Origin: Pseudophaeobacter flagellatus
Lineage (GTDB): Bacteria > Pseudomonadota > Alphaproteobacteria > Rhodobacterales > Rhodobacteraceae
NCBI RefSeq assembly: GCF_021228235.1
Contig: NZ_JAJQRG010000007.1
Span: 62,001 to 126,000 of the forward strand
DNA: 64,000 bases
Reading direction: 5' to 3'
Notes under the pieces: model-generated
Told to the model about the DNA's origin: nothing
Database searches by the model: none
Seen by the model: only the letters and a program-made list of their open reading frames with translations
Part shown: in pieces, positions 9,433-21,364 of the stretch
How positions within the stretch are numbered: position 1 is the stretch's first letter
How the letters are laid out: every line of letters starts with the position of its first letter
Made by a program: the position numbers and the translations under genes

Positions 9433-10920
9433 TTACCACCAATTTCCCGGCTTTGCCACAAATCCGGTCGATTGCTCCAGCGCATAGGCGGTATTGAGCA
9501 GATCGCCCTCTTCCCATGGGCGGCCGATCAGCTGAAGGCCAAGCGGCAAGCCCTGGCTATCCAGTCCTGCAGGCAAGGCGATGCCGGGCAGGCCAGCAAG
9601 GTTCACGGTGACGGTAAAGACATCCAGCAGATACATTGCAACCGGATCCGCATCGGACATTTCTCCCAGACCAAAGGCCGCCGAGGGCGTCGCCGGGGTC
9701 AGAATTGCATCAACGCCGGCCGCAAAGACATTTTCAAAGTCCTGCTTGATCAGGCTGCGCACCCGGCGCGCCCGGTTGTAATAGGCATCGTAGAACCCTG
9801 CCGAGAGCACATAGGTGCCCACCATGACCCGACGCTTCACCTCATCGCCAAAACCCTGAGCGCGAGTCTTTTCATACATTTCGGTGATGCCATCGCCTGC
9901 CTCCAGCCTGGCGCGGTTTCCATAGCGAACGCCATCATAGCGCGCCAGGTTCGACGAGGCCTCGGCCGGGGCGATCACGTAATAGGCGGGCAGAGCGTAT
10001 TTGGTATGCGGCAGCGAGATATCGACGATCTCTGCACCTGCCTCCTTGAGCATATCCCGCCCTTCAGCCCAGAGCTTTTCGATCTCGGCGGGCATGCCCT
10101 CCATGTGATATTCCTTGGGAATACCGATCTTTTTGCCACGGATATCGCCAGTCAGCATGGCCTCAAAATTTGGCACCGCCAGATCGGCGCTGGTGCTGTC
10201 CTTGGGGTCATGGCCCGACATCGCCTCAAGCATGATGGCGGCATCGCGCACCGATTTGGTCATTGGACCGGCCTGATCCAGCGAAGAGGCAAATGCAACG
10301 ACACCCCAGCGCGAGCAACGGCCATAGGTCGGCTTGATGCCAACGGTACCGGTAAAGGCCGCAGGCTGGCGGATCGACCCGCCGGTATCGGTGCCGGTTG
10401 CTGCCAGACACAGATCTGCCGCCACCGCCGCGGCGGACCCACCAGAAGACCCCCCCGGGGTCAGTTGTGCATCGGATCCTTCGCGCCGCCAGGGGCTGAC
10501 CGCATTACCATAGGTTGAGGTCTCGTTCGACGAGCCCATGGCAAATTCATCCATGTTCAACTTGCCCAGCATCACCGCACCGTTGTCGGCCAGTTGCTGC
10601 GACACAGTACTTTCATACTCTGGCACAAAACCCTCGAGGATTTTGGAGGCCGCCTGGCTGGCGACACCTTTGGTGCAAAACAGATCTTTGATCCCCACCG
10701 GCAGGCCACACATGGCCGGGGCATCGCCCTGCTGCAGCCGCGCATCCGCTGCCGCCGCGCGCTCCAGCGCGATCTCGGGCGTTTTATGCACAAATGCATT
10801 CAGCGCATCCGCCTTATCGATGGCGCTGAGGCAAGCTTTGGTCAGCTCAACGGAGGTTGTTTCCCCCTTGCGGAGCGCATCACGGGCCTCTGCCAGACCC
10901 AGTTTGTTCAGATCGCTCAT
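9433..10920 (-). CDS. gatA: Asp/Glu-tRNA amidotransferase subunit A
   Basis: A 495-residue amidase-signature enzyme, the glutaminase/amidase subunit of GatCAB. The complex converts Glu-tRNA(Gln) (and Asp-tRNA(Asn)) to the amide form. The Ser-cisSer-Lys triad is present: K78 in [10 protein letters not shown]158 in [17 protein letters not shown] and nucleophile S182 in [14 protein letters not shown]. The subgroup-specific [14 protein letters not shown] and [22 protein letters not shown] confirm GatA over generic amidases. It lies 3 bp after gatC on the same transcript. gatB is not in the window. Confidence 0.97.
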
Positions 10921-10923
10921 CTC

Positions 10924-11211
10924 TTACTCCATCACTTTGGGCACGGCAAAAAAGCCTTCGCGCGCATCCGGCGCATTGGACAAGATCTTGTCCTGCTGGT
11001 TGCCGTCGGTGACCACATCCTCGCGCCGCTTCAGCCGCTGCGGTGTGACCGAGGTCATCGGCTCGACCCCTTCCACATCGACTTCGTTCAGCTGTTCGAT
11101 GAACTCTAGGATCGTGTTGAATTCGGCGGCCAGGGCTGGCAGCGCGTCATCTTCCACCTTGATCCGGGCCAGTTTGGCCACTTTGGCGGCGGTGTTTTGG
11201 TCAATCGACAT
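10924..11211 (-). CDS. gatC: Asp/Glu-tRNA amidotransferase subunit C
   Basis: A 95-residue GatC, the small wrap-around subunit that stabilises GatA on GatB. The pattern is clear: VAKLARIKVEDDALPALAAEFNTILEFIEQLNEVDVEGVEPM, ending in the DKILSNAPDAREGFFAVPKVME tail typical of GatC. The start is placed at the ATG at 11211 (MSIDQNTAAKV), with GAGGG upstream. The longer open frame to 11385 lies over the upstream region and has no family similarity. It is translated just ahead of gatA. Confidence 0.95.
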   Translation of the reverse strand: MSIDQNTAAKVAKLARIKVEDDALPALAAEFNTILEFIEQLNEVDVEGVEPMTSVTPQRLKRREDVVTDGNQQDKILSNAPDAREGFFAVPKVME

Positions 11212-14767: not shown

Positions 14768-14861
14768 GGTACTTCGGGCAGACTTCCCCCTAGCAAGTAC
14801 CTCCCGCATCCCCTAGTTTCTTGGTAACAAGAGACAACAGCGCTTTGCGAGGGGAACACGC

Positions 14862-14936
14862 GTGCAGAAAATTGCCTTTGCCGCTTTGCTATTCCTGATG
14901 ATCGGCCTGAGCACCGGCTGGATCGTGGGGGGCTGA
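14862..14936 (+). CDS. Putative 24-residue single-pass membrane peptide
   Basis: A GTG-initiated ORF of 24 codons (VQKIAFAALLFLMIGLSTGW, then four more residues). It is preceded by GAGGGG at good spacing and ends 3 bp before the ATG of the XpaC gene. Nearly all of it is one hydrophobic helix. It was too short for the ORF scan. Position, ribosome site and composition make it plausible as the first product of the XpaC-TelA transcript, but codon-level evidence is thin. It could instead be only a leader. Confidence 0.4.
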   Translation: MQKIAFAALLFLMIGLSTGWIVGG

Positions 14937-14939
14937 CGC

Positions 14940-15875
14940 ATGGCACAACAGTTTGGCGGTAAATTCAGCCCCAAGGGCTCCTCCCGCTCGGGTCCGGACA
15001 GCGCCGAGCAAGGCACCACCTCTGACAGAGCGCCCTTGGCGCGCCCCCATGCCAGCACCCGCAATGCCACCACTGATCCGGTGGGGCTGCGCGCGAACCT
15101 GATGTTCATCCCAGCGGGGCTGATGCTGCTGCTCTCTCTCAATGACGGCGCAACTGGGCTGGCCCTGGGGCTGGTGGCGGCGGCACTCTGGACGGGCGGC
15201 GCATATATGCTACGCGAAGGTCTGCGCGCCACAGCCGCCTTTCAGGCCCGGCGCGTGGCCCGCAGACCCGCCCTCCCCCGCAAGATCCTGGCCGCCCTTC
15301 TGGTTGGCACCGGCGCAGCACTTGCCGCCTGGAAGGCCGAACCGGGGCTGCTGATTGCCGCCATCTATGGCCTGGCGACCTGCGGGTTGCACCTGGCAGC
15401 CTTTGGTCTGGACCCCCTGCAAAACAAGGGCACCGAAGGCATTGATGACTTTCAGCAAAACCGGGTGGCCCGCGCCGTCGAGGAAGCCGAATTCAACCTA
15501 GATGCCATGACCGATGCCGCGCTACGGGTCCGCGACCGCGAGGTCGAAGAGCGGGTCGAACAGTTTCAGGCCGTCGCGCGCGAGCTGTTTCGCACCGTCG
15601 AAGAAGACCCGCGCGATCTGACTGCCGCACGCAAGTACCTGACGGTCTATTTGCAGGGGGCGCGCGATGCCACGGTGAAATTTGCCGACATCTACACCCG
15701 CAGCGGCGATGCAACGGCGCGCAGCGATTACCTCGCCCTGCTGCAGGACCTGGAACAGAACTTTACTGCCCGCACCCGCAAGATGCTGCTGGAAGACCGC
15801 AGCGATCTGACCGTTGAAATTGATGTGCTGCGCGACCGGCTACAGCGTGAAGGCGTCCATCTGGACCGTAGCTAA
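14940..15875 (+). CDS. XpaC-family membrane protein (5-bromo-4-chloroindolyl phosphate hydrolysis family)
   Basis: A 311-residue protein. A polar N-terminus (about 50 residues) precedes two hydrophobic pairs (LMFIPAGLMLLLSL, LALGLVAAALWTGGAYML, KILAALLVGTGAALAAW, LLIAAIYGLATCGLHLAAF). A long cytoplasmic coiled-coil region follows from residue about 165 (VARAVEEAEFNLDAM, RDREVEERVEQFQAVARELFRTVEEDP). This layout and the C-terminal RTRKMLLEDRSDLTVEIDVLRDRL match the XpaC family, which is regularly encoded next to TelA. The family name reflects an old screening phenotype, and a membrane-stress role is more likely. The TelA gene begins 23 bp downstream. Confidence 0.8.
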   Translation: MAQQFGGKFSPKGSSRSGPDSAEQGTTSDRAPLARPHASTRNATTDPVGLRANLMFIPAGLMLLLSLNDGATGLALGLVAAALWTGGAYMLREGLRATAAFQARRVARRPALPRKILAALLVGTGAALAAWKAEPGLLIAAIYGLATCGLHLAAFGLDPLQNKGTEGIDDFQQNRVARAVEEAEFNLDAMTDAALRVRDREVEERVEQFQAVARELFRTVEEDPRDLTAARKYLTVYLQGARDATVKFADIYTRSGDATARSDYLALLQDLEQNFTARTRKMLLEDRSDLTVEIDVLRDRLQREGVHLDRS

Positions 15876-15898
15876 CCTCTTTGCAAGGAACCCTCTTG

Positions 15899-17089
15899 AT
15901 GTCCGAGACCATTCAGAAAAAAGCCGCCGAAGCCGAAGCCCAGGTCATGGCGGTTGCCGCCACCACCCTGCCCGAACCCGTCGAGTCGGTGGCACCGCTG
16001 CAAGAGGCCACGCCCGAGGTAAGCGCCGAAATCCAGACCCGGATCGGTGAAATCGACATGGGCGACAGTAATTCGATCATCCGCTTCGGCTCTGGCGCCC
16101 AGGCGGAACTGCAGACCATCAGTCAGGCGATGCTGGCGGATGTGCGCAACAAGGATGTCGGCCCGGCGGGCGATTCGCTGCGCAATATCGTCACCACAAT
16201 CCGCGGCTTTTCGGTCTCGGAACTGGACGTGCGCCGCAAACCCAGCTTCTGGGAGCGCCTTTTGGGCCGCGCCGCGCCCTTTGCCAAATTCACTGCCCGG
16301 TTTGAAAGCATTCAAGGCCAGATCGACAAGATCACCGATGATCTGTTGGGCCATGAGCACACCCTGCTGAAAGACATCAAATCGCTGGATATGCTTTATG
16401 AGAAAACGCTGAACTTCTATGACGAACTGGCGCTCTATATTGCCGCCGGCGAGGCCAAGCTGGCCGATCTGGACGCGACGGATATCCCAGCGCTGGAGGC
16501 CGCCGTTGCCGCCGCACCAGAGGCCGATCAGGTGATGCGCGCACAAGAGCTGCGCGATCTGCGTGCTGCCCGTGACGATCTGGAACGCCGAGTGCATGAC
16601 CTAAAGCTGACCCGACAGGTTACCATGCAGTCGCTGCCTTCGATCCGGCTGGTGCAGGAAAATGACAAAAGCCTGGTAACCAAGATCAACTCTACCCTCG
16701 TCAATACAGTGCCGCTGTGGGAAACCCAGCTGGCCCAGGCGGTTACCATCCAGCGCTCTGCCGAGGCCGCCCAGGCAGTCAGCTCGGCCAATGATCTTAC
16801 CAATGAGCTGCTGACCTCTAATGCGGCCAACCTGCGCCAGAGCAACAAGATGATCCGCGAAGAGATGGAGCGCGGCGTCTTTGACATCGAAGCCGTGAAA
16901 CAGGCCAATGCCGATCTCGTGGGCACAATCCAGGAAAGCCTGCAAATCGCCGATGAAGGCAAGGCCCGCCGTGCTGCCGCCGAAGCAGAGCTGAAAAAGA
17001 TGGAAGCAGAGTTGCGCGACACATTGGCCGCCGCCAAGGCGCGCAAGGATGGGGTCGGCGATACCGCCGCCACCTCGGTACCTGGTTGA
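15899..17089 (+). CDS. TelA-family toxic anion resistance protein
   Basis: A 396-residue mostly alpha-helical cytoplasmic protein of the TelA/KlaA family. Recognisable stretches are FWERLLGRAAPFAKFTARFESIQGQI, LDMLYEKTLNFYDELALYIAAGE, SIRLVQENDKSLVTKINSTL and VPLWETQLAQAV. A C-terminal coiled coil rich in Ala, Glu and Lys follows. TelA proteins were linked to tellurite resistance on plasmids, but chromosomal copies travel with XpaC, SPFH and Ter-type proteins in stress loci. The ATG at 15899 is chosen over an in-frame TTG at 15881. The next ORF starts immediately after the stop. Confidence 0.9.
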   Translation: MSETIQKKAAEAEAQVMAVAATTLPEPVESVAPLQEATPEVSAEIQTRIGEIDMGDSNSIIRFGSGAQAELQTISQAMLADVRNKDVGPAGDSLRNIVTTIRGFSVSELDVRRKPSFWERLLGRAAPFAKFTARFESIQGQIDKITDDLLGHEHTLLKDIKSLDMLYEKTLNFYDELALYIAAGEAKLADLDATDIPALEAAVAAAPEADQVMRAQELRDLRAARDDLERRVHDLKLTRQVTMQSLPSIRLVQENDKSLVTKINSTLVNTVPLWETQLAQAVTIQRSAEAAQAVSSANDLTNELLTSNAANLRQSNKMIREEMERGVFDIEAVKQANADLVGTIQESLQIADEGKARRAAAEAELKKMEAELRDTLAAAKARKDGVGDTAATSVPG

Positions 17090-18052
17090 ATGCGGCGGGC
17101 GTCCATGGCCCGGTGGCGCAGCCTCGCCCGCCCAGTGGCGACAGGCTTTGGCTTTGCCGCCCTCGCGGTGCTGACCGCCTGTCTGCCTGCCAGCGATACC
17201 ACATCTTTGGTGCCAAAGCCGCGCCCAGAGGTGCTGCCTGCTGCCTATCGCCCCCCCTCAGCCGAGAGCGCCCAACTGCGCAACTATTACCGGGTGCTGC
17301 AACAGGATCTACTGACCCGCGGATTGCTGCGCACGGACGGCGGCGGGCCGGAAACCCCCTTTGATGCCGATGATCTGGCAGAGCATTTTGAGGCCATTGC
17401 CTTTTACAGTGAATATGGCGGGCGCAGCGGCGGCTTGACCGGTGGGCTAAGCCGCTGGTCCGGCCCGGTGAAACTGGTTGCCGAATTTGGCCCCTCGGTG
17501 CCCGAAAGCCAACGTAATCGTGATCGCAAGGTGCTGCGAGCCTATGGCGAACGGTTGGCGCGGGTCACCGGCCATAGCATCACAACCGCGCCGAAACGGG
17601 GCAATTTTCACGTGATCTTTGCCAGTGCCGATGACCGCGCCTTTGTGGCCGAAACGGTCCGCTCCCTCCTGCCCAACCTCAGCGACAACGACCTGCAACT
17701 CTTTATCAATCCGCCGCGCACGCATTATTGTTTTGTGCTGGCGGGCGGCCCGCAGAATGCACCGTTCGACTATCTGCGCGGCGTTGCGCTGATCCGCGCC
17801 GAACACCCAGATCTGGTGCGCGATAGCTGCATCCACGAAGAGGTCGCGCAGGGCCTTGGCCTGCTGAACGACAGCCCGCGCGCCCGTCCCTCTATCTTTA
17901 ACGACGATGATGAATTTGCCTTTTTGACCAGCCATGACGAGCTGCTGTTGAAAATGCTCTATGATCCGCGCCTGCGCACAGGCATGAGCGCCGAAGAAGC
18001 CCGCCCTATCATCCGTATCCTTGCCCGCGACGTAATGGGGCAGCCGCTCTAG
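17090..18052 (+). CDS. DUF2927 lipoprotein, zincin-like
   Basis: A 320-residue envelope protein. A signal peptide ends in a lipobox (LAVLTAC), so it is probably lipid-anchored facing the periplasm. The mature region matches DUF2927: VARVTGHSI, then a core with DSCIHEEVAQGLGLLNDSP, FNDDDEFAFLTSHDELLLKMLYDPRLRTGM. The HEExxQxLGL segment looks like the zinc helix of matrixin-type zincins with the second His replaced by Gln. It could therefore be an atypical or inactive metalloprotease. Its ATG abuts the TelA stop (TGAATG), so it is coupled to the same transcript. An in-frame ATG at 17105 is an alternative start. Confidence 0.82.
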   Translation: MRRASMARWRSLARPVATGFGFAALAVLTACLPASDTTSLVPKPRPEVLPAAYRPPSAESAQLRNYYRVLQQDLLTRGLLRTDGGGPETPFDADDLAEHFEAIAFYSEYGGRSGGLTGGLSRWSGPVKLVAEFGPSVPESQRNRDRKVLRAYGERLARVTGHSITTAPKRGNFHVIFASADDRAFVAETVRSLLPNLSDNDLQLFINPPRTHYCFVLAGGPQNAPFDYLRGVALIRAEHPDLVRDSCIHEEVAQGLGLLNDSPRARPSIFNDDDEFAFLTSHDELLLKMLYDPRLRTGMSAEEARPIIRILARDVMGQPL

Positions 18053-18107
18053 CTGCAACTGCCCTGTTTGCCCGACTTACCTACGACCATAGAAAAGGAC
18101 CTGAACC

Positions 18108-19253
18108 ATGGGAATATTTGACTTTCTCAAAGGCGAATTCATCGACGTCATTCACTGGACCGATGACAGCCGTGACACCATGGTCTGGCGGTTTGAACGC
18201 GAAGCGCATGAGATCAAATACGGCGCCAAGCTGACCGTCCGCGAAGGCCAATCGGCGGTCTTTGTGCACGAAGGCCAGCTGGCAGATGTCTTCACGCCGG
18301 GCCTTTACCTGCTTGAAACCAACAACATGCCGGTGATGACCACACTGCAGCACTGGGATCATGGCTTTCAGTCACCGTTCAAATCCGAAATCTATTTTGT
18401 AAATACAACCCGTTTCAACAACCTGAAATGGGGCACCAAGAACCCGATCATCTGCCGCGATCCAGAATTTGGCCCGGTGCGACTGCGCGCCTTTGGCAGC
18501 TATTCGGTCCGGGTGGTGGATGCGGCGCGCTTCCTGACTGAAATTGTTGGCACTGATGGTGAATTCACCATGGATGAGATCTCTTTCCAGATCCGCAATA
18601 TCATCGTGCAAGAGTTTTCGCGCGCGGTGGCAGGATCGGGCATTCCGGTGCTTGATATGGCGGCCAATACCGCTGACCTGGGCAAGCTGGTCGGTGCCGA
18701 GATCGCGCCAACCCTGTCGGAATACGGGCTGAGCATCCCCGAGCTGTATATCGAAAACATCTCGCTGCCGCCTGCGGTCGAACAGGCAATGGACAAGCGC
18801 ACCCAGATGGGCATTGTCGGCGATCTGGGCCGCTATACCCAGTTTGCCGCCGCCGAGGCCATGGAAGCCGCTGCAACCACCCCAAACAGTGGCATGGGGG
18901 CCGGAATGGGGATGGGCATGGGAATGGCCATGGCGCAGCAAATGGCCAATACCGGCCAGGCCGCTGGCCCCTGGGGGGCCCGCCCCGCCGCCGCAGCACC
19001 TACGCAGGCAGCCGCCCCCGCAGCCCCACCGCCGCCACCCGTCGAACATGTCTGGCACACGGCTGAGAATGGCACCACCTCTGGGCCCTTTTCCAAGGCG
19101 CGCCTTGGGCGCATGGCACAGGAGGGCAGCCTGACCCGTGAGACCCATGTCTGGACACCTGGTCAGGATGGATGGATGCGCGCCGGTGACGTCGCTGAAC
19201 TGGCACAACTCTTCACTATTCTGCCACCACCGCCACCGCCGCCAGCCGCCTAA
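18108..19253 (+). CDS. SPFH-domain protein with C-terminal GYF_2 domain (YdjI-like)
   Basis: A 381-residue cytoplasmic protein. The N-terminal about 260 residues form the SPFH/prohibitin-like domain of the YdjI 'virion core' branch (EFIDVIHWTDDSRDTMVWRF near the start, then EIAPTLSEYGLSIPELYIENISLPP). A Gly/Met-rich stretch (MGAGMGMGMGMAMAQQMAN) and an Ala/Pro linker lead to a GYF_2 domain (VWHTAENGTTSGPFSKARLGRM, TPGQDGWMRAGDVAEL). Proline runs close the protein. In Bacillus the YdjI homologue ends in a zinc ribbon and is recruited to the membrane by YdjG and YdjH with PspA; here GYF_2 replaces the ribbon. AAAGGA precedes the ATG, 55 bp after the DUF2927 gene. Confidence 0.85.
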   Translation: MGIFDFLKGEFIDVIHWTDDSRDTMVWRFEREAHEIKYGAKLTVREGQSAVFVHEGQLADVFTPGLYLLETNNMPVMTTLQHWDHGFQSPFKSEIYFVNTTRFNNLKWGTKNPIICRDPEFGPVRLRAFGSYSVRVVDAARFLTEIVGTDGEFTMDEISFQIRNIIVQEFSRAVAGSGIPVLDMAANTADLGKLVGAEIAPTLSEYGLSIPELYIENISLPPAVEQAMDKRTQMGIVGDLGRYTQFAAAEAMEAAATTPNSGMGAGMGMGMGMAMAQQMANTGQAAGPWGARPAAAAPTQAAAPAAPPPPPVEHVWHTAENGTTSGPFSKARLGRMAQEGSLTRETHVWTPGQDGWMRAGDVAELAQLFTILPPPPPPPAA

Positions 19254-19443
19254 ATCGCGGCCAAGCCACAGGCGCGTTGATGCAGCACCACTGGCGCGGT
19301 TCTACAGCTTGTCGCGTTCATCTGCATTCACGTGACTGGCCATAGCCATTTGATACAGCATGTTTTTATGCGCAAAACCAGCACCCACTTTTGCGCAACC
19401 TGCTCTCACCGGCCAGCTTCCGGCCTCTAGTCTTGGTAGTATT

Positions 19444-20598
19444 GTGACTGACCATCCGCCCGCTGCACCACCAGCCGCCCCGCAAGACAGCTGGGACCCG
19501 GCAGGCCCCCAAAACCCGATCGAGACCAACCGCTTTCCCTGCGAACAATGTGGAGCCGACTATCGTTTTGACCCAAAAGAAGGGCGCCTGATCTGCGGCC
19601 ATTGTGGCCATGGTCAGGAGGTGCAAGAGGCCGCCCCACAGGGCGGTGCTCTGCGCGAACTGGATTTCAAGGCGGCACTGACCGCGCGCCTGCCCGAAGC
19701 CGAGATGGAGGTGACGCGGGTTTCCACCTGCCCCAACTGTGCCGCCCAGGTCGAGTTTTCGGATGAAACCCATGCGCTGGAATGCCCATTCTGCGCCACC
19801 CCCGTGGTGGCCGATACCGGCGAGAGCCGCCACATCAAACCCAAGGGTGTCGTGCCCTTCATGCTGGCGGAACCTGCCGCACAAAAGGCCATGGCAAGCT
19901 GGCTCGGCTCTCTGTGGTTTGCCCCCAATGGCCTGCAGGCCTATGCCCGCAAGGGGCGGCGCATGGAGGGGATCTACGTCCCCTACTGGACCTATGACGC
20001 CAAGACCAAGAGCCGCTATTCCGGGGCCCGGGGCACCACCTATTATGTTTCTGAAACAGTTATGGTGGATGGCAAGGCAGAAATCCGCAGGGTGGCCAAG
20101 ATCCGTTGGACCCCGGTGTCCGGCCGGGTTTCACGGTTCTTTGACGATGTGCTGGTGCTGGCCTCCAAAAGCCTGCCAAAACGCTATACCGACGCGCTGG
20201 AACCCTGGGATCTGTCGCATCTTGCCCCCTATCAACCGCAGTTTCTGGCCGGCTTTCGCGCCGAAGCCTATGCCATCCCCCTAGACGATGGCTTTGATGA
20301 GGCACGCGCCCATATGGATCGGGTGATCGAACGCGACGTACGGTTTGACATCGGCGGCGACCGCCAGCGCATTTCAAACATCGACACGGCGCTTTCGGAC
20401 GTGACCTTCAAACATGTCCTGCTGCCGGTCTGGATGGCCGCCTATAAATATCGCGGAAAGACCTATCGCTTTGTAATCAATGGGCAAAGCGGCAGGGTTC
20501 AGGGCGAACGCCCCTATTCCAGCTGGAAGATCGCCGGTGCCGTTCTTCTGGGACTCGCGCTGTTGGGCGTGGCCGCCTATTTTGGCGCCCAGAGCTAG
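19444..20598 (+). CDS. Double zinc-ribbon membrane-anchored protein (YdjG-like)
   Basis: A protein of about 384 residues with two N-terminal zinc ribbons: CEQCGADYRFDPKEGRLICGHCG and CPNCAAQVEFSDETHALECPFCA. A large beta-rich domain follows (VPYWTYDAKTKSRYSGARGT, FKHVLLPVWMAAYKYRGKTYRF). A single C-terminal membrane helix (IAGAVLLGLALLGVAAYFGA) closes it. This is the layout of YdjG-type partners of YdjI, which hold SPFH proteins at the membrane. The start is uncertain: a GTG at 19444 (VTDHPP) fits the conserved part, but the frame is open back to an ATG at 19360. It is the last gene of the XpaC-TelA run. Confidence 0.78.
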   Translation: MTDHPPAAPPAAPQDSWDPAGPQNPIETNRFPCEQCGADYRFDPKEGRLICGHCGHGQEVQEAAPQGGALRELDFKAALTARLPEAEMEVTRVSTCPNCAAQVEFSDETHALECPFCATPVVADTGESRHIKPKGVVPFMLAEPAAQKAMASWLGSLWFAPNGLQAYARKGRRMEGIYVPYWTYDAKTKSRYSGARGTTYYVSETVMVDGKAEIRRVAKIRWTPVSGRVSRFFDDVLVLASKSLPKRYTDALEPWDLSHLAPYQPQFLAGFRAEAYAIPLDDGFDEARAHMDRVIERDVRFDIGGDRQRISNIDTALSDVTFKHVLLPVWMAAYKYRGKTYRFVINGQSGRVQGERPYSSWKIAGAVLLGLALLGVAAYFGAQS

Positions 20599-20680
20599 CT
20601 GTCGGCAGTTTTATTTCCCAAAATTCGGGGCAAGACCCCCGCAAGACAAATGCCAATATCTGATGACAGGACGATATGAT

Positions 20681-21364
20681 ATGACCGCTCCGCTGCCCAG
20701 CCTGACCGATCTTGAGGCGCTGTTTTCCGCCCGTCACAGTTGCCGTGCCTTTCGCCCCGATCCGCTGCCACGCGCGATGATCGAAGACATCCTGAGATGC
20801 GCCCAGAAAGTTCCCTCTTGGTGCAACGCGCAGCCATGGAAGGTCACCGTGACCAGCGGAGCAGAAACCGATCGCCTGCGTCAGGCCCTGACACAGGCGG
20901 CCATGGCGGGCGGCCACAGTCCTGATCTCGACTTTCCCAAGGCCTATCTGGATGAATATAAAGCCCGACGCCGGGAATGCGGTTGGGCGTTATACGAGGC
21001 GGTCGGGGTCGAAAAAGGCGACCGCGCCGGTTCTGCCCGGCAGATGATGGAAAATTTCACTCTGTTTGGCGCACCCCACTGTGCGGTGCTGTCCACACCC
21101 AACGATCTGGGCGGATATGGCGCGATGGATTGCGGTGGTTTTGTCGCAGGCTTCACCCTTGCGGCACAGGCCGCCGGAGTGGCAAGTATTCCCCAAGCGG
21201 CGGTGGCCTCTTTCGCGCCGTTGCTGCACGAGATGCTGCAGATTCCACAGGATCGCCAGATCCTCTGCGCTATTTCCTTTGGCTATGGCGATCCGGACCA
21301 CCCGGCCAACCGTTTTCGCACCAGCCGCGCCGCCCTGGCTGAATTCACCGACTGGCGCGACTAG
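20681..21364 (+). CDS. Nitroreductase-family flavoprotein
   Basis: A 227-residue FMN-dependent nitroreductase-fold protein. The signature RHSCRAFRPDPLPRAMIEDIL, followed by A..VPSWCNAQPWKV, binds the FMN phosphate, and the C-terminal FGYGDPDHPANRFRTSRAAL is typical. Such enzymes reduce nitro groups, quinones or enones with NAD(P)H; the physiological substrate is not predictable. The Cys in PSWCNAQPW replaces the Ser/Thr that is usual in this loop. The start is the ATG at 20681; the frame is open 67 codons further back, over the previous gene. It is close to dtd downstream. Confidence 0.88.
   Translation: MTAPLPSLTDLEALFSARHSCRAFRPDPLPRAMIEDILRCAQKVPSWCNAQPWKVTVTSGAETDRLRQALTQAAMAGGHSPDLDFPKAYLDEYKARRRECGWALYEAVGVEKGDRAGSARQMMENFTLFGAPHCAVLSTPNDLGGYGAMDCGGFVAGFTLAAQAAGVASIPQAAVASFAPLLHEMLQIPQDRQILCAISFGYGDPDHPANRFRTSRAALAEFTDWRD

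Follow-up and report, generated by a model that had tools for sequence, protein, structure and literature searches.

We analysed a window, meaning the whole stretch of 64,000 nucleotides from Pseudophaeobacter flagellatus (NZ_JAJQRG010000007.1, assembly GCF_021228235.1, positions 62,001-126,000), in which five long genes and one tiny open reading frame (ORF) lie on the + strand with gaps of 3, 23, 0, 55 and 190 bp in gene order. An original prediction made from the sequence alone had described this run as a candidate envelope-stress module; its coordinates and gaps were reproduced here, and the five-gene order is conserved in the Rhodobacteraceae, hereafter the family. In window positions, the run opens with a micro-protein of 24 amino acids that forms one hydrophobic helix (14862..14936, GTG start), followed by an XpaC-type membrane protein with a hydrophobic N-terminal half and a Halogen_Hydrol domain (14940..15875; PF10112, 2e-29) and, adjacent and co-directional, by the soluble long-helix protein TelA (15899..17089; PF05816, 6e-109). 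Next come a DUF2927 lipoprotein with a matrix-metalloproteinase-like (metzincin) predicted fold (17090..18052; PF11150, 3e-64), an SPFH (Band_7_1) protein with a C-terminal GYF_2 domain and poly-proline tail (18108..19253; PF13421, 5e-100, and PF14237, 3e-19) and a double zinc-ribbon protein with a C-terminal membrane anchor (19444..20598, GTG start; a longer frame is possible from 19360).

Pfam thus bore out the predicted XpaC, TelA, DUF2927 and SPFH/GYF_2 families. The zinc-ribbon protein has no Pfam match above the cut-off, and the predicted double ribbon and anchor are seen as four CxxC pairs, of which C96/C99 and C114/C117 are invariant and C33/C36 and C51/C54 at least 90% conserved among 25 aligned relatives, and as a single C-terminal hydrophobic helix from residue 363. 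Hydrophobic-window counts (four in XpaC, none in TelA or the SPFH protein) and the lipobox-like LTAC of the DUF2927 protein, placed by its N-terminal hydrophobic window and with a Cys that all but one of 38 aligned copies share (37, the last having a gap), agree with the proposed topology of a lipoprotein, a soluble SPFH protein and a tail-anchored zinc ribbon.

Conservation and co-inheritance of the gene order

We sampled 120 family genomes, the TelA-bearing ones each from a different genus, and detected TelA in 105, the window's own included. From the 104 others with TelA, 40 loci were taken by handle order and scanned with profile models built from those loci themselves; a second set comprised 80 loci found through TelA patterns in the genome collection (the best 80 of at least 562 relatives), is weighted to close kin of the window and shares at least one record with the first. 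The five-gene order is intact in 33 of the 40 family loci and 73 of the 80 second-set loci. Counting how often the five families co-occur in order had been set beforehand as the check on the module, and these counts do not support random adjacency, confirming that the run is a conserved unit. Several exceptions in the family set reflect assembly limits or short contigs: two runs reach a contig edge (L050, L056), and one lacks a zinc-ribbon match in the 2.6 kb remaining before the contig start (L053). The second-set exceptions are five contig-edge cuts (L161, L178, L188, L195, L196) and two loci without a zinc-ribbon match (L162, L199). The run tends to a single genomic place: of the 40 family loci, 29 have rluB upstream and 22 have dtd downstream. 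A TelA-DUF2927-SPFH-zinc ribbon run is also carried by the Paracoccus megaplasmid pFER4 (CP038202.1), whose record annotates these four larger genes by family name alone. Roseobacter sp. MED193 has the most similar TelA (95% identity) among the matches listed, from which the window's own records were perhaps excluded.

TelA and SPFH are also inherited together. SPFH was found in all 40 of the TelA-positive genomes examined (the window's own excluded) and in 1 of 15 TelA-negative ones, an association with a Fisher p of 3e-12 when kinship is ignored; the single TelA-negative genome with SPFH is a 78%-complete assembly with the match at a contig edge. In 38 of the 40 the SPFH gene is in the locus, in genome G018 it lies in a separate locus and in G004 it is on another contig.

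The pairs that make up the run can be traced outside the family. We took 20 of the 26 alphaproteobacterial TelA matches from outside it (omitting G329, G182, G396 and three below the cut-off) and found an XpaC match in 15 of these loci, in some at least 1.5 kb away. Five carry XpaC-TelA-SPFH-zinc ribbon without DUF2927 (L074, L075, L077, L079, L087), two of them (L077, L079) from one genus. The zinc-ribbon gene is next to SPFH outside the family too: among 20 further SPFH loci (L111-L130, being 17 of 21 non-family rows plus three others, with five TelA-adjacent ones excluded), a zinc-ribbon match adjoins SPFH in 18 (in eight the match is weak, E 1e-9 to 5e-4), and TelA is absent from all 20, a set chosen without the TelA-adjacent loci. 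Because a four-gene core without DUF2927 and separate SPFH-zinc ribbon loci both occur outside the family, alphaproteobacteria appear to have brought the XpaC-TelA and SPFH-zinc ribbon pairs together, and the family to have gained DUF2927 in the space between the two.

Several neighbouring features were observed alongside. A search for a further constant gene within the run, using leftover ORFs of at least 90 amino acids in the 40 family loci, yielded none; the largest group is a kinase-like gene 3' of the zinc ribbon in 18 loci, and TerC is next with 7. A nitroreductase gene (window 20669-21364, same strand) follows the zinc-ribbon gene after a short gap and is downstream in 7 of the 40 family loci, and the transcript may extend into it. 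Cytochrome b561-like genes lie between the SPFH and zinc-ribbon genes in L036, L057, L058 and L063 (by Pfam in L057, by look in the rest). In L043 the zinc-ribbon gene is in two frames (10034-11181), and in L078 TelA has an in-frame TAG, reflecting either decay or assembly error. Directly 5' of the SPFH-zinc ribbon pair, two loci of other Pseudomonadota (L116, L124) have DUF350 membrane genes, a different partner in the same slot.

The micro-protein and the upstream element

The tiny membrane ORF of the original prediction stands as part of the run, and is revised here to a conserved gene kept in front of XpaC. Its GTG start is preceded by AGGGGA, and we detected a relative directly 5' of XpaC in 35 of the 39 family loci having XpaC (30 at E <= 1e-3, and three at E > 1) and in 78 of 79 second-set loci (68 at E <= 1e-3, ten above it), the weaker matches being kept on place and look. 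Fourteen sequences, that of the window and 13 from the family, served as seeds for the profile and so match by construction. In the sole second-set miss (L137) TelA begins at contig base 110, so the DNA before XpaC is missing, and the best off-site match in the family set reaches E 3.6. Measured to where the XpaC profile match begins, the distance ranges from -4 to +13 bases, with frequent overlap. Across 99 sequences (98 profile matches at E <= 1e-3 plus that of the window), nonsynonymous differences (pN 0.39) are rarer than synonymous ones (pS 0.63), with pN below pS in 95.7% of 4851 non-independent pairs. The consensus read from the alignments is L-Q-K-x-A-[FY]-x-x-L-L-x-x-L-x-x-[GY]-V-x-x-G-x-x-G-G, and three of the peptides gave no Pfam or NCBIfam model at cut-off. 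The profile had no match in the five non-family four-gene loci; hydrophobic frames near XpaC in three of them (L074, L075, L079) have no clear similarity to the micro-protein and were left uncounted.

A two-block conserved element precedes the micro-protein. Its first block, TTCCCCCTAGCAAG (14784..14797, + strand), starts 78 bases 5' of the micro-ORF. Of the 90 relatives searched, 17 carry a single exact copy of this 14-mer, including 11 of 12 of the window's genus (its own counted), and the other 73 have none, so that beyond the genus most of the family lacks the exact form. All 17 copies lie shortly 5' of the micro-protein, and the reversed pattern, used as a control, is absent from all 90 genomes. 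Among 118 upstream regions, 36 match a longer seed (chosen from those same regions) at 12 or more of 15 positions, compared with 4 of 590 shuffles. The second block, ATCCCCTAGTTT (14808..14819, + strand), has the consensus ATCcCcTAg.TT over 32 distinct sites, and TAGCAA-N17-TAGTTT gives a -35/-10-like spacing. By these patterns the element looks like an operon-specific promoter, a role that we infer because a standard sigma-70 consensus scan reports no promoter there. As a separate observation, one record (L145, JAFKDC010000001.1) is titled Enemella evansiae TN21-6, an actinobacterial name, and has the micro-protein and upstream DNA of the family-set locus L032; it is probably a mislabelled assembly.

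Features of the lipoprotein, the SPFH protein and TelA

The lipoprotein signs of the DUF2927 protein held, and to them we add a predicted metzincin catalytic-domain fold with a substituted metal motif. Its predicted structure resembles matrix metalloproteinase 7 (MMP-7) and karilysin, at 9-16% identity in the matches listed, and its motif reads E250-E251-x-x-Q254-x-x-G257-x-x-N260. In a register set by spacing, nearly all of 56 DUF2927 sequences have EExxQxxGxxN in place of the HExxHxxGxxH/D zinc motif. E250, E251 and G257 are each present in 56 of 56 and D261 in 55 of 56, and the residue that precedes the motif is His (H249) in 44 of 56. With metzincin spacing, His is missing from all three ligand positions in 55 of the 56 and occurs at 254 in one; an alternative register starting from H249 places Ala, Ser, Thr or Met at the second ligand position. 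The protein is thus like the metzincins in predicted fold, motif spacing, putative catalytic Glu and Gly, and differs in having E, Q and N at the zinc His positions and in being a lipoprotein. No metzincin is known to us with ligands of the E/Q/N type, and none was described among the papers listed by a literature search; DUF2927 by name was absent from the literature searched. Elsewhere in its genome the window's strain encodes a second, longer DUF2927 protein of 501 amino acids with the same EExxQ motif (L101, contig C1:505997-506599), and seven DUF2927 matches lie inside some 20 kb of genome G278.

The SPFH protein was predicted to be YdjI-like, and its Band_7_1 domain agrees with this; its C-terminus carries GYF_2 and poly-proline instead of the zinc ribbon reported in the Bacillus band-7 protein. 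All 112 complete family copies (those cut by contig ends excluded) have both the GP[FYW] GYF signature and poly-proline in the last 14 residues. Ligands of the PPG-hydrophobic type are known for some eukaryotic GYF domains, and 53 of the 112 SPFH proteins end in exactly PPG plus a hydrophobic residue; the window's PPPPPPPAA does not. Among 24 non-family SPFH proteins (omitting L111, with a broken SPFH frame, and the family members L096 and L097), the 12 with the GYF motif all have PPP in their last 28 residues, and the other 12 have no PPP tail and, by eye, SHOCT-like or helix-turn-helix-like ends; the p-value for this 12/12 versus 0/12 co-occurrence, 7e-7, is optimistic since several are close kin. 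The co-occurrence of motif and tail suggests that the GYF domain may grip the poly-proline tail of the chain it belongs to or of an adjacent one. A sequence relative of GYF_2 is the GYF domain of Adventurous gliding motility protein X (AgmX, PDB 7z3c; E 5e-9), where the protein context differs; in the SPFH protein the same chain bears the poly-proline tail. Outside the family (L112-L130), the C-terminal add-on alternates, by eye, among GYF_2, SHOCT-like and helix-turn-helix-like forms, as if this position picked the partner, and one plasmid record is annotated as both SPFH and helix-turn-helix.

The AlphaFold model of TelA (predicted local distance difference test, pLDDT, 78) has two long helices at 127-205 and 208-301. 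A search of the PDB by sequence found nothing clear for TelA, the DUF2927 protein or the zinc-ribbon protein.

Relation to known systems and possible function

Membrane recruitment of both YdjI and PspA in Bacillus depends on YdjG and YdjH, and that of PspA also on YdjI (PMC8581546); band-7, zinc-ribbon, TPM and PspA genes were grouped by Ravi et al. (PMC11237479). The latter work gives the Bacillus band-7 protein, printed YdjL, a C-terminal zinc ribbon and the zinc-ribbon protein of the YdjI/YdjG-type module a YpeB/NTF2-like domain, and its main text lacks the words TelA and XpaC. The run in the window shares with pspA-ydjG-ydjH-ydjI a Band_7_1 SPFH protein beside a membrane-anchored double zinc ribbon (likened by its described features) and a partner with long helices. 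It differs in having TelA and XpaC where Bacillus has PspA and TPM/YdjH, in the GYF_2 and poly-proline of its SPFH protein, and in the added pseudo-metzincin lipoprotein and micro-protein.

The other half of the run resembles the XpaC-TelA pair of Listeria and Bacillus, in which the same two families are adjacent and in the same direction; in the window the pair is joined to SPFH-zinc ribbon and DUF2927, with the micro-protein in front. In Bacillus, xpaC and yaaN are adjacent. The Listeria pair is lmo1966-lmo1967 (PMC12791056, where a cited title, Collins 2010, credits Listeria TelA with a part in resistance to nisin and to cell-wall antibiotics). A Paracoccus TelA protein reported in a marine plastic biofilm proteome (PMC11962581) indicates that the TelA family is expressed in this group. 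None of the papers listed in our literature searches describes this gene set, in line with the original prediction, whose author knew of no described system with exactly this set.

The module had also been called PspA-less, and the window's whole genome indeed has no match to PspA (PF04012), nor one to a TPM/YdjH-type protein (PF04536), which was found in 8 of 14 control genomes. We tentatively propose, at somewhat less than even confidence, that the run encodes a membrane scaffold that spans the envelope and works without PspA. Oligomers of the SPFH/GYF_2 protein would form beneath the inner membrane, with GYF domains assisting assembly by gripping poly-proline tails, either those of adjacent subunits or their own, and would be kept at the membrane by the tail-anchored double zinc-ribbon protein. 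Because the genome has SPFH and zinc ribbon without PspA or TPM, and XpaC and TelA adjoin them, cytosolic long-helix TelA and membrane XpaC with its coupled micro-protein may fill the places of PspA and YdjH in the YdjI/YdjG system. The exported DUF2927 lipoprotein, with the usual zinc ligands replaced, would most likely bind rather than cut peptides or unfolded envelope proteins, and could report the state of envelope proteins to the inner-membrane complex or anchor that complex. In favour of the scheme we count the conserved order, the four-gene core outside the family, the co-inheritance of TelA and SPFH, the lack of PspA and TPM in this genome, the co-occurrence of GYF and tail, the DUF2927 fold and motif, the Bacillus precedent and the Listeria TelA link; every physical contact, the stress role and the lipoprotein's partner are what we infer. 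A stronger form, a second, PspA-free SPFH membrane-repair machine in alphaproteobacteria with TelA as polymerising effector, an SPFH GYF-poly-proline clasp and envelope signalling through the pseudo-metzincin and micro-protein/XpaC, is doubtful and offered as speculation.

A number of observations weigh against the scaffold. The unit can break: DUF2927 has no match in one family locus (L044), another runs without XpaC (L051), and two retain only XpaC-TelA in place, with SPFH on another contig (L034) or DUF2927-SPFH-zinc ribbon about 36 kb off (L047, genome G018, the remainder in L096). XpaC and micro-protein matches are absent from the 10.7 kb of Paracoccus pFER4 examined (L228). DUF2927 is found without the other four genes nearby in TelA-lacking family genomes (L091-L094), and in one more such genome with just a weak XpaC-like match near (L095). 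The module and PspA can share a genome: PspA matches were found in 25 of 120 family genomes, 22 over the cut-off, and 19 of the 105 TelA-bearing ones are among the latter. PspA and TelA show no anti-correlation (PspA in 19 of 105 genomes with TelA versus 3 of 15 without, Fisher p 1.0). The best Foldseek match of the TelA model has E 0.04 and probability 0.44, to unrelated helical proteins, and PspA, Vipp1 and ESCRT-III are not among the matches listed in this PDB fold search, so the replacement of PspA by TelA is a positional analogy only. The kinship among the SPFH proteins behind the GYF-tail statistic counts on the same side.

One doubtful but real alternative is that two old pairs, XpaC-TelA for cell-wall and antimicrobial tolerance and SPFH-zinc ribbon as a membrane-domain organiser, have come under one promoter together with DUF2927 and are co-expressed while acting separately. 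Ten of the 20 non-family TelA loci have an XpaC match without SPFH, 15 out-of-class SPFH loci have a zinc-ribbon match in at least 13 (14 of 15, the other lying at a contig end) and TelA in none, and the run of G018 is split; but within the family TelA and SPFH are inherited together even where they are not neighbours, as in G004 and G018. The nine strong non-family SPFH genes of the class cut both ways, with five adjoining TelA and four not. We consider it unlikely that DUF2927 is instead an active protease or hydrolase with an unusual metal site (E250, Q254, N260/D261, perhaps H249) in a module for regulated periplasmic processing. The predicted metzincin-like fold and the near-invariant E250, E251, G257 and D261, with the frequent His249, would suit such an enzyme, against which stand the missing ligand His in 55 of 56 sequences, the poor second ligand in the H249 register and the fact that no metzincin is known to us, or was described among the papers listed, with such ligands.

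Tellurite or metal-oxyanion resistance, suggested by the TelA family name, is improbable. A TerC-like gene 5' of the micro-protein/XpaC in 7 of the 40 family loci (L031, L033, L039, L044, L048, L058, L061; by Pfam in L033 only) links the run to Ter/metal systems, but the other 33 loci have no TerC match, TelA is widespread rather than patchy in the family, and the SPFH and zinc-ribbon partners indicate membranes. An anti-phage defence cassette with a membrane effector, which a multi-gene membrane module without known function might bring to mind, is very improbable: PADLOC gives a single weak match, to XpaC (E 0.0035), and the run tends to one genomic place between rluB and dtd.

If the membrane scaffold is the right reading, a conserved SPFH-TelA-XpaC unit could explain how membranes are maintained without PspA, of which 95 of the 120 family genomes have no match, in a group whose roseobacter-type bacteria are abundant in the sea. 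DUF2927 gains a predicted fold, and a conserved micro-protein without a Pfam or NCBIfam model is added to the unit, which would place the vaguely named TelA and XpaC families in a concrete setting.

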